From positions 1-64,000 of the forward strand of contig JAISEL010000037.1 of the NCBI GenBank assembly GCA_031264185.1: a stretch of 64,000 nucleotides of DNA. The letters run 5' to 3'. The DNA is from Deltaproteobacteria bacterium. Lineage in GTDB: Bacteria > Desulfobacterota > Desulfarculia > Adiutricales > Adiutricaceae. A program made the position numbers and the translations under genes. Numbering within the stretch: the first letter of the stretch is position 1; the number at the start of each line of letters is the position of its first letter. The notes beneath the pieces are model-generated. The model made no database searches, was not told the origin of the DNA, and saw nothing but the letters and a program-made list of their open reading frames with translations. Of the stretch, positions 48,837 through 52,245 are shown one piece after another.

Positions 48837-50864
48837 TCAATTGTAACTGTATGTTATGCCCACGTAAAAACTCCGGCCCTGTCCGGCGTAGTCCAGGATC
48901 GGTTCATAATATTCGTCAAACAGGTTCCGGACAGCGACATCCATAGAAATTTTGCTCTTTTCGCCGATACTGAACAAAGTCTTTTTCAAAGATAAATCAA
49001 CTAAAGTGTATGCCGGCGCTTTCACAACGGTTTTGGCGCCGTAGTTGTAGCCAAAATTCTGCTCGTATGCTCTGGCGAAATAAGAAACATTAAGGTTAGA
49101 GGAAAATTCATATTTAGGATAATCAAAATTGATTCCGGCCGCCAAAGAATGAGGCATATAATAACCCGCGACTTTTTTCCCCGTAGCGTCCACCGCCTCC
49201 CGCGTTGTATAAAGGGTGGCCTTGACGTAAGGTTCCAATTCAAATTCCTGCCCCAAAAGGCTTCCCAAGTACAGGTTCGCTCCAAATTCAAAACCGGCGT
49301 AAGTAGATTCTCCGGGAGCATTGTAGTAGGTTGAAATATTCGGCGGCAAACGTCGTCCTGATCTTATCTCATTCTTATACTTAGTATAAAAATATGTGAT
49401 ATTAGAAGAAAAATAGTCAAAATTAAAATCCAGCCCCAGTTCATAGGTATCGCTTTTTTCCGGAGATAAGTCCGGATTACCCAAATAAAGGGTTGCGCCT
49501 GACTGATATACTTGGGCAACTTCAGTCGGCGTGGGAGTCCGAAATCCTTTGGAGTAATTTGCCCTAATTTTAAGCCAGTCAATAGGTATGAAGACTATAC
49601 CTGCAGAAGGAGAAACATTATGTTCCTTGATAGTGTTTCCGGTTGCGTCATTTTCGAAATTGTCATAACGGACACCGGCGTTAAATATTAAACTGTCTTC
49701 CAAAAACTTGAGCTTTCCAATAAAAAAGGCTGCGTAGTTTGACATTTTGTAGTTTTTCAAAGCCCTGGTCGGAAGATCATACTGAGAGAATCTCTCAGTG
49801 GCATATTTCAGCCAGTCAAGACCTGCCGTCAACTCAAATGTATCAAAAGCAGCTTTCATTTGAGCCTGAATTCCGTCCATTTTGGTGTCCGTCGAGTAAG
49901 GTCTGAGATCCCTTCTGTGAGAATTATGCGATTCGTATTTATCAGTTATGTGATAGTATCTTGTTTGCCAGGAAAGGGCTCCTCTCTCGTTAGCTCCGGT
50001 ATATAGAAAATCAAAAGATGTGTTTTTGTTAACTACATTGGAACCTCCGATATCATTCGGGGTGATTGGGCCGTAGCTGTGACTGCCGCTAGTTCCCTGA
50101 TAGTTATTATCGTAAAAACCGGCAGTCATACCCAGCCGCTGACGGTCATCCATAAAATTGTATCCGATATTAAGACTGCCGGTATAAATTCCGTGATTAA
50201 GAGTGTTATACAGCCTTTGGCCGTTACCATCTTCAATGTCGTTGTTTCTTGTTCTGTACAGCCCGAGCGCAAAATCTACCGGCCCCTGACGAAAATCCAT
50301 ACCGATGGTTTGGTCATTGAAGGAAAAACTGCCGAATCCGGCTTTAGCCCGAACAGAAAGATCCCCTTGACCTTTTTTGGTAATGACGTTAATAACCCCA
50401 CCCATAGCAGCTGTTCCGTACTGAACCGCTGCCGGGCCGCGGATGATTTCCACAGTTTCAATGTTGGACTTCATGATCCTGTAAAGATTTCCAGTTCCTG
50501 CCGGTCTCCCGTCCACCAAAAGCAGGACTCTGCCGCCGAGACCGCCGTCATTGCCTACTGTTGCCGTTCTGAATCCCCTGATATCCACTGCGGCGGTTCC
50601 TTGACCCGGATAGTCGCGGATGTGGAATCCCTCGTGCCTCAATATCCCTGACAATGTGTCAAATGGAATTATATCCAACTGCTTTTCATCAATAACCGTA
50701 ACATGTGAACTGACTTCCCGCAGAGATTCCTGACCTCTGGAGGAAGTAACGACTATCGTATCCAGAGTGCTGGCAACGCCGCCTCTCTCTCCTTGGGCCA
50801 TAAGTTCGGCAGATACTATACATATTGTAAATAAGACCAACAAAGTCATCACCGATCGGAACAT
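48837..50864 (-). CDS. TonB-dependent outer-membrane receptor, BtuB-like
   Basis: A 675-residue receptor. It has a signal peptide (1-23), a TonB box followed by TIVVTSSRGQESLRE, a plug domain (DIRGFRTATVGNDGGLGGRVLLLVDGRP and VEIIRGPAAVQYGTAAMGGVINVITK) and a 22-strand barrel. Size and plug resemble vitamin-B12 or catecholate-siderophore receptors. A cobalamin riboswitch on the same strand lies 1.2 kb upstream, which favours corrinoid uptake; the corrinoid-dependent acetyl-CoA pathway gives a reason. AAGGAG precedes the ATG. No TonB, ExbB or ABC importer is in the window. Confidence 0.87.
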   Translation of the reverse strand: MFRSVMTLLVLFTICIVSAELMAQGERGGVASTLDTIVVTSSRGQESLREVSSHVTVIDEKQLDIIPFDTLSGILRHEGFHIRDYPGQGTAAVDIRGFRTATVGNDGGLGGRVLLLVDGRPAGTGNLYRIMKSNIETVEIIRGPAAVQYGTAAMGGVINVITKKGQGDLSVRAKAGFGSFSFNDQTIGMDFRQGPVDFALGLYRTRNNDIEDGNGQRLYNTLNHGIYTGSLNIGYNFMDDRQRLGMTAGFYDNNYQGTSGSHSYGPITPNDIGGSNVVNKNTSFDFLYTGANERGALSWQTRYYHITDKYESHNSHRRDLRPYSTDTKMDGIQAQMKAAFDTFELTAGLDWLKYATERFSQYDLPTRALKNYKMSNYAAFFIGKLKFLEDSLIFNAGVRYDNFENDATGNTIKEHNVSPSAGIVFIPIDWLKIRANYSKGFRTPTPTEVAQVYQSGATLYLGNPDLSPEKSDTYELGLDFNFDYFSSNITYFYTKYKNEIRSGRRLPPNISTYYNAPGESTYAGFEFGANLYLGSLLGQEFELEPYVKATLYTTREAVDATGKKVAGYYMPHSLAAGINFDYPKYEFSSNLNVSYFARAYEQNFGYNYGAKTVVKAPAYTLVDLSLKKTLFSIGEKSKISMDVAVRNLFDEYYEPILDYAGQGRSFYVGITYSYN

Positions 50865-51649
50865 TTCATCTCCTTGTAAAAATCTCCCCTGTGGGGAGCA
50901 AGCCGGCGGCCTCTACCTCCAAAAGCCGCCAATTTCAGATAACCTCCTCGGTAAGCCCGAAAAGGCTGCGCCCAAAACCGGAACTGATCAAAACAGTTCA
51001 GGAAAAAATTTCTGACAGAATTCCGCCCGTAATTACGTTTATTCTCATGCTTCGGAACAATATCCAATGACATCTCCATTTTGTAGAGTTCATATTTGAC
51101 TGCCATTTGCCTTCCCAGGCCATAAATGCATGACCATGGATTTTTTATTGTCAATTTTGAAACGGCTTTATCTTAAAACTCTATTTACATTTTTCATATT
51201 ATTTTTTCCTTTATTGCTGCCTTCTTGACCTAAAAACCATTTTTCAATCATCATTGCCTTTCAATATGGGCTTGCCGGCATTTGCCAGTTCAGATGGCCA
51301 TTAAGCTGATTTTCATATTACCCGTATATTTGCTCTCCAGCCTGGAATATAAGTCAACTCAAAAACCCGCCCCTGTCCGTCAAAAACCTTGAATCCGGGA
51401 CGCGACAAGGCTGATCAGGGATTTGTTCCGGCTTTGGCGTTTGAAAATTATCGGCGAAGACTTGTATCATTTGGCATGGGAACAAAAAAAGCCAGCTCCT
51501 GTTTAAGGTCCACGGATTGGCTTCAAAATAAGACGAAAGCAATATTAATATTGGAAACACGGAACAGGTTAAATGCCCGGCTCCAGACACTTCTGATGGA
51601 ATAGCTGTCGGAAAAAAGGAGAAAAAATACTCTGAGTTGGCTAAATTAT
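50865..51649. other. Long leader between riboswitch and TonB receptor, first part
   Basis: Near the receptor start two hairpins occur on the minus strand: one with GGCGGC / GCCGCC (50899-50926) and one with CTGAACTGTTTTGATCAGTTC (50983-51003). Otherwise only short frames without recognised content. Confidence 0.35.
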
Positions 51650-51712
51650 GAGAGAGAGAGAGTGAGAGAGAGAGAGAGAGAGAGAGAGAGAGAGAGAGAG
51701 AGAGAGAGAGAG
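51650..51712. repeat. GA/CT dinucleotide microsatellite
   Basis: About 31 GA units with one GT interruption near the left end. It lies between the riboswitch and the TonB receptor and is the only such tract in the window. Tracts of this kind mutate by strand slippage. Confidence 0.98.
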
Positions 51713-51968
51713 CAAGAAATGTGCCAATTTTGTCTGGTCAAAAATTAGACGCGAGTTTGTATGTTTAAACTGATTGTTGTTCATAACCGAATCCTAAATG
51801 ATTTTTCTTCTTGCCTAAGCCACTTTCGGCCCTCAACGGCTTTATTTGCCCGAGAGAGGAGAGAAGAAGAAGATAGGAGCGACCTTAAAAATATCTTTCA
51901 GTGATCTGAGTTTTTTCCAGAACCAACCAAGCCCGGTTCGGGCCTGGTTTATATGGTCTTTGGGCCAT
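51713..51968. other. Intergenic between microsatellite and terminator
   Basis: No gene. A short Lys/Arg/Glu-rich plus frame without function. Nothing else. Confidence 0.3.
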
Positions 51969-52005
51969 AAAAAACTCCCGGACCACAAAAAAAATGATCC
52001 GGGAG
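51969..52005 (-). terminator. Rho-independent terminator downstream of the cobalamin riboswitch
   Basis: Stem CTCCCGGA / TCCGGGAG with a 15-base loop and TTTTTT after it on the minus strand, 75 bases after the aptamer. It fits an expression platform that stops transcription when cobalamin binds. Confidence 0.8.
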
Positions 52006-52080
52006 CCCATTATCCCGAAAAGCATAATATTATAATATTAGTTCTTTGGTCCCAATTCCCCTTGAGTCCAACAAACAACA

Positions 52081-52245
52081 ATTCAGGCAGGTCTTCTGGC
52101 TTGTCCTTTTTCCCGAGGCCTTCCCGTCTTAACTGACAGTGGCCAAAATACGGAAAAATCTGAATTAATTCCAGGACTTACAGCGATGGGCCCGCTCCTG
52201 ATTCTCACAGGATTCCCTATTCTCCCCTTTACGAGGCACCTGAAT
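52081..52245 (-). ncRNA. Cobalamin (B12) riboswitch
   Basis: On the minus strand a P1 stem ATTCAGG / CCTGAAT encloses the conserved aptamer. In order come GGGGAGAATAGGGAATCCTG, then TGAGAATCAGGAGCGGGCCC, then GGCCACTGTCAG, then GGGAAGGCCTC, and finally AGCCAGAAGACCTGCC. These are the class-I cobalamin riboswitch consensus blocks. It points toward the TonB receptor at 50864 and is followed by its own terminator. Confidence 0.93.

Follow-up and report, generated by a model that had tools for sequence, protein, structure and literature searches.

We analyzed a window of 64,000 nucleotides from a Deltaproteobacteria bacterium of the family Adiutricaceae (contig JAISEL010000037.1), in which a cobalamin riboswitch and the gene of a TonB-dependent outer-membrane receptor, both on the minus strand, are separated by about 1.1 kb containing a long (CT)n microsatellite. 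This tract starts inside the -12 element of a predicted sigma54 promoter, here called P2, and the same fusion of promoter core and repeat is found about 40 times in the genome. The sequence comparisons make it likely that these promoters with their slippery tracts form a phasome, whose downstream genes would vary independently between sister cells, and that P2 is one of its members. An original prediction made from the window had proposed that the tract, read as GA on the plus strand, tunes corrinoid uptake in a phase-variable way. This idea gains strong indirect support and a scope far beyond corrinoid, but the mechanism differs, the tract being part of P2. Neither the sigma54 -24/-12 core directly 5' of the tract on the minus strand nor its roughly 40 genomic copies had been recognized in that prediction.

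When the gap between riboswitch and receptor was searched as DNA against its own genome, about 40 places matched the tract together with 16-40 nt of one flank. On the minus strand this flank reads TTTTTGACCAGACAAAATTGGCACATTTCTTGC(TC)n, which corresponds to TGGCAC-N5-TTGC, a perfect sigma54 -24/-12 core. Architecture and orientation are identical in all tracts examined, with the exception of a few that are cut by contig starts. Across 40 distinct promoters TTGG-C and TTG never vary and TATTG is frequent. The -24 GG and -12 GC show the 10-nt spacing expected of sigma54 promoters, while tract lengths range from 10 to 88 nt with a median of 48. A genome-wide search for TGGCNY-N5-TTGC(TC)n gave 39 matches, compared to none for the reversed-pattern control; the loci examined cover 597 of the 618 genome-wide (GA)10 positions (20-mers). 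A census of tracts of at least 8 units in 476 kb of this genome, overlaps included, returned 43 CT/GA tracts. Of these, 39 immediately adjoin a sigma54 core on the RNA-like strand, and the remainder, four tracts, are situated at contig starts. CA or AT tracts of this length were absent from the same 476 kb. Conventional sigma54 sites lacking a tract are also present, so sigma54 promoters of this genome do not generally carry one. The genome has a single copy of rpoN (one PF04552 hit, E 8e-60).

Some of these promoters share a further element. TGACCA occurs within 40 nt in 11 of the 40 promoters, compared to a mean of 0.27 after shuffling, and at a fixed distance in nine of the 40. A TTTTGACCAA-like element at a fixed distance 5' of the -24 box is seen in the window and in 8-10 other promoters of the genome, about one in four of those that bear a repeat. 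It may be a candidate regulator site specific to this subset. Dispersal of a mobile element carrying the tract was considered and rejected, since the flanks of most copies are unrelated past the promoter core and only recognizable paralogous groups share them.

The genes behind the promoters are strongly biased. At 12 of 39 sites a TonB plug domain is encoded on the same strand no more than 1.6 kb downstream, where 0.006 would be expected per site (P about 5e-18); in the divergent direction this is so at none of the 39. Within 7.5 kb the count is 16 of 39 because some sites precede metal-uptake operons of the FecCD/periplasmic-binding type whose last gene encodes a TonB receptor. Other targets in this genome (G000 in our numbering; other G-numbers are the family genomes compared with it) include two ShlB/FhaC transporters, one of them adjoined by the start of a two-partner-secretion (TPS) exoprotein, an LRR/PATR surface protein, an Acyl_transf_3-SGNH protein of the lipopolysaccharide (LPS) O-acetylase type, a WaaY/Kdo LPS kinase, an N6_N4 DNA methylase that also has an Mrr domain, a methyltransferase, a DUF4384 protein and a TPR protein. 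The corresponding promoters of G002, G006 and G029 stand before genes for autotransporters, exoproteins of the TPS type, TonB receptors, enzymes of the GT2 and GSCFA families, PilW, proteins with LRR or TPR domains, a dnd/type I-like restriction enzyme, and methylases of the DUF1156 group. The same gene classes are generally known to be phase-variable in Neisseria, Haemophilus, Moraxella and Campylobacter (PMC5320596, PMC7302503, PMC6321876). An association with TonB genes as a rule for the whole family was considered and discarded: it is strong in this genome and weak elsewhere because the targets differ. The restriction enzyme and two of the DUF1156 methylases, which are anti-phage-associated, stand behind sigma54-CT promoters of G002 (L180, L182 and L189), and their presence suggests that phage defence may be randomly switched in that genome.

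The motif was detected in 18 of 37 family genomes belonging to seven genera, with up to 39 matches per genome. In a sample of the phylum it was present in 11 of 395 genomes, those outside the family having one or two matches each, and the reversed control gave 0 throughout. The nearest named relative is the metagenome-assembled genome (MAG) Kf353_bin9 (G006); its name and the acetyl-CoA pathway genes point to a termite gut as its probable source (PMC9137090). The orthologous receptor in this MAG, with 65% identity, is preceded by CGGCTT-N5-TTGC followed by (CA)n. Likewise, a methyltransferase gene has a (CT) tract in G000 and G002 and (CA)67 in G004, with proteins 53-58% identical, and another genus uses the form TTGCA(CT)n. 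These variants indicate that position and repetitiveness are kept while the repeat unit changes.

Length also differs between close copies. All nine paralogous promoter pairs with flanks of 90-100% identity differ in tract length, as in pairs of 55 and 23 (97.5% flank identity), 27 and 71, and 63 and 49 (flanks 98.6 and 97.4%), the last of these from the three-contig genome G029. Such differences between near-identical promoters show that tract length turns over faster than the flanks, in a comparison made between promoter copies rather than between cells. In another of the nine pairs, of 57 and 39, the promoters L061 (C155:1-137) and L073 (C30:10721-10839) have 100% identical 80-nt downstream sequences, differ in their upstream flanks and lie at contig ends; this could reflect a repeated gene or recombination across the tracts. 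In G029, six of eight sigma54-CT promoters, including L211-L215, are located on the small contigs C2 and C3 (65 and 134 kb), which are perhaps plasmids.

We propose that slipped-strand mispairing would change the initially transcribed region in both sequence and length, so that the expression of each downstream surface, uptake or DNA-modification gene would vary cell by cell, with the promoters still gated by whichever enhancer-binding protein activates them. The set shares three properties with known phasomes: a long pure repeat, a repeat number that changes faster than the flanks, and targets among surface, LPS and restriction-modification genes. How tract length could be translated into output is a more tentative part of this proposal, and we give it somewhat less confidence than the phasome itself. 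The -12 element may double as the seed of a hypermutable tract laid over the start region, making activator-gated promoters stochastic gene by gene. Tract length would then act after closed-complex formation, through initiation within the repeat, slippage synthesis, promoter escape or leader stability, and not via promoter spacing.

Several observations weigh against a phasome. As the tract is 3' of the -12 element, its length cannot change the -24/-12 spacing, which is the classic mode of action of promoter repeats. Tract lengths are spread broadly (22-88 nt, plus one of 10) without a preferred ON length, and the window's own tract carries one interruption. Few or no sites precede TonB genes in G002, G003, G006, G018 and G029, which makes the target set lineage-specific. 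Length variation within a population and ON/OFF states are both predictions made from sequence. Finally, mismatch repair restrains dinucleotide slippage, and it has not obviously been lost here given the presence of MutL. That the tracts arose because mismatch repair was lost is an explanation we rejected, MutL being present in 15 of 15 genomes tested.

Alternatively, the CT tract could be a required and length-tolerant structural part of a dedicated class of sigma54 promoters, in which changes of length have no consequence. Such a role could consist in easier melting, in H-DNA, or in a (CU)n 5' end to which a protein or RNA binds. The invariant position and strand in about 40 promoters and the broad range of lengths with no preferred value fit this explanation, and CT, as a mirror repeat of homopurine-homopyrimidine type, belongs to the repeats able to form triplex DNA (PMC4060949). 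However, some orthologous promoters have (CA)n, which is not homopyrimidine, so that repetitiveness is conserved and a sequence-specific property is not. In some members the tract is only about 10 nt long (C97:80.6k, on the contig of the window), and the gene set resembles known phasomes and not a metabolic regulon. We therefore consider a purely structural tract unlikely, though it is the most credible of the alternatives to a phasome.

At the locus in the window, all elements are encoded on the minus strand, and the series of riboswitch, terminator, GA tract and TonB receptor described in the original prediction was borne out. A sigma70-like promoter, P1 (TTGACA-17-TATTAT, 52253..52281, 11 of 12 consensus matches), is placed to drive the riboswitch transcript. 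It is followed by a full-length cobalamin aptamer (RF00174, 52069..52258) scoring 104.3 bits (E 4.9e-25), well above the gathering score of 31.5 bits. The strong intrinsic terminator (51969..52005) consists of a perfect stem, CTCCCGGATCA/TGGTCCGGGAG, in the region of about 51975-52005 and a T run at 51969-51974; it folds at about -25 kcal/mol with flanks, indicating that an expression platform is present. As had been claimed, the aptamer is complete and has its own terminator. Next come a TGACCA element (51735..51740) and the sigma54 core of P2 (TTGGCAC-ATTTC-TTGC, 51712..51727). The tract (51650..51712), predicted at about 31 units, measures 31.5 units with 96% matches and a single interruption at 51663. 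The GC of the -12 element opens the tract, which spans from -12 to about +50 and hence covers the initially transcribed region.

Between the tract and the receptor lies a 5' leader of 785 nt (50865..51649) with no convincing open reading frame (ORF). No sigma70-like site was found on its minus strand, which we count in favor of expression from P2. A candidate terminator or attenuator hairpin followed by TTTTTTT (51491..51524, -12 kcal/mol, weak to moderate) is located 125-160 nt past the tract and may attenuate P2 transcripts or terminate a small RNA; regarding the latter, this moderate hairpin and T run were the only signs in the leader, and no conserved element was found there. A second riboswitch in the leader was considered and rejected, as a permissive Rfam scan gave chance-level matches only (RybB with E 0.27, on the other strand). 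In the whole gap from riboswitch to receptor the aptamer was the sole RNA-family match of the Rfam scan, and the coding potential is restricted to small overlapping ORFs, in agreement with the apparently non-coding 1.1 kb noted originally.

The receptor itself (48837..50864, 675 aa) has Plug and TonB_dep_Rec domains and resembles BtuB and heme receptors, with BtuB structures matching at E about 1e-14. Its score against the BtuB equivalog TIGR01779 is 137.6, below the curated cut-off of 599.7, and its match to TIGR01785 is likewise under the curated cut-off; a corrinoid ligand is suggested by the riboswitch. The acetyl-CoA pathway, said to be encoded nearby, is indeed represented in the window by genes for the acetyl-CoA synthase (ACS) beta subunit (61905-63962), a CdhD-family subunit (60411-61748) and formate-tetrahydrofolate ligase (21027-22802). 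Beyond the riboswitch, at 52314-52528, there is a decayed second copy of the 3' end of a dnaJ-like gene (48353-48567, 77-81% identity). The receptor/riboswitch module is thus flanked by the end of this gene and its remnant copy, possibly an insertion or duplication scar.

Three further riboswitch/TonB modules are present at 81-91 kb of the same contig (C97). In all four modules, that of the window included, the order is a sigma70-like promoter, aptamer, terminator, sigma54-(CT)n and TonB receptor, with TTGACA 22-23 nt ahead of the aptamer. Counted past the aptamer, the terminator follows at 77-94 nt, sigma54-(CT)n at 342-604 nt and the TonB start at 991-1204 nt. Shared order and regular spacing suggest that the gap is a regular composite regulatory region. 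The four modules share 82-89% identity in their riboswitch regions, but the window's module ceases to resemble the others past the terminator, implying that the sigma54 part was not simply copied along with the riboswitch. The region C97:81000-92000 contains five cobalamin riboswitches in 11 kb, including two divergent pairs, and three TonB receptors, one of which is broken into two ORFs.

P2, located 3' of the riboswitch terminator, thus appears from its position to be a second promoter of the receptor, which would provide an expression route independent of B12. Corrinoid uptake would then be set by two inputs, the B12 level acting through the P1 riboswitch and a stochastic input from tract length acting through P2, where the tract would define both the initially transcribed region, consisting of pyrimidines alone on the RNA strand, and the long leader's 5' end. 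A simpler possibility is that the receptor is expressed solely by read-through from P1 into a 1.1-kb leader and that the sigma54-like site is irrelevant here. P1, aptamer and terminator are all of good quality, and the lack of any further minus-strand sigma70-like promoter up to the gene is compatible with such read-through as well. Yet the P2 core is perfect, the order P1, riboswitch, terminator and P2 is repeated in four of four TonB modules of the contig, and where a gene is visible behind another cobalamin riboswitch of the genome, the distance is about 8-300 nt and sigma54-CT is lacking. Read-through as the only route is quite improbable on these grounds.

Even less probable is that the tracts are neutral microsatellites without functional importance, seeded by slippage at TTGC(T/A)C in an expansion-prone lineage and spread as copies by gene duplication. 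Every tract begins with the same TTGC seed and duplication of some promoters is visible, as this scenario would predict. But dinucleotide tracts are missing elsewhere in the 476 kb although short CT and CA seeds are common, tract-free sigma54 sites coexist with the fused ones, and in this genome surface genes lie behind the promoters far more often than chance would allow; moreover, the fusion occurs in seven genera although the flanks are unrelated, which points to maintenance. The loss of a gene between riboswitch and receptor, which the original prediction had offered to explain the 1.1 kb without an obvious gene, is hardly credible, as the gap holds small overlapping ORFs only and no RNA family besides the aptamer, the four modules share order and spacing, and the only decayed coding copy nearby, the dnaJ 3' end, is on the far side of the riboswitch.

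Phase variation by simple repeats is known mainly from host-adapted pathogens, with homopolymers or tetranucleotides in ORFs or sigma70 promoters. The phasome proposed here shares features with several such systems. In Mycoplasma gallisepticum, vlhA genes have (GAA)n about 40 nt upstream of the start and are active at 12 repeats (PMC6258824); there, too, dozens of surface-protein paralogs carry one microsatellite at a fixed promoter position with repeat numbers varying over conserved flanks, which makes vlhA the closest analogue in this respect. However, vlhA has a trinucleotide, no sigma54 and a single gene family, while here a dinucleotide is associated with many gene classes and lies 3' of the -12 element in all cases, not upstream of the promoter core. 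Poly-G and AGAT tracts upstream of the Moraxella catarrhalis uspA1 and uspA2 ORFs provide graded tuning of transcript level (PMC7302503) and are similarly located between promoter and ORF, but they are single loci with a homopolymer or tetranucleotide not tied to sigma54. Neisseria fetA, a phase-variable TonB-dependent receptor gene, also has a repeat in its promoter; this is a poly-C between -35 and -10 of a sigma70 promoter whose length alters the spacing (PMC5320596), hence a homopolymer, and fetA is among few transcriptionally variable loci.

The order of aptamer, terminator and receptor is that of other RF00174-controlled TonB/BtuB receptors, which differ in lacking a second, sigma54-type promoter with a microsatellite between terminator and receptor. 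The TGGCAC-N5-TTGC core is that of canonical sigma54 promoters, unlike the fused dinucleotide tract over the transcription start, the pyrimidine-only initial region and the some 40 surface and DNA-modification genes served. Repeat-driven phase variation is a known principle. For sigma54 combined with repeat-tract phase variation we found no precedent in the open-access literature, subscription papers being outside the search, and the fusion of a sigma54 -12 element to a dinucleotide repeat across a genome-wide gene set therefore appears, as read from these genomes, to be an architecture without a precedent found. If confirmed, it would represent a new promoter architecture for phase variation in which each locus can be recognized by a short pattern. 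The design also allows the effect of tract length within the initially transcribed region on sigma54 output to be tested cleanly.

In this uncultured family with acetyl-CoA pathway genes, about 40 uptake, surface, LPS and DNA-methylation or defence genes are seemingly under a single promoter design, which at some loci is placed behind a B12 riboswitch. Should the proposed variation be confirmed, it would suggest that differences between single cells in phage sensitivity and in the uptake of corrinoids and siderophores matter in insect-gut symbionts.

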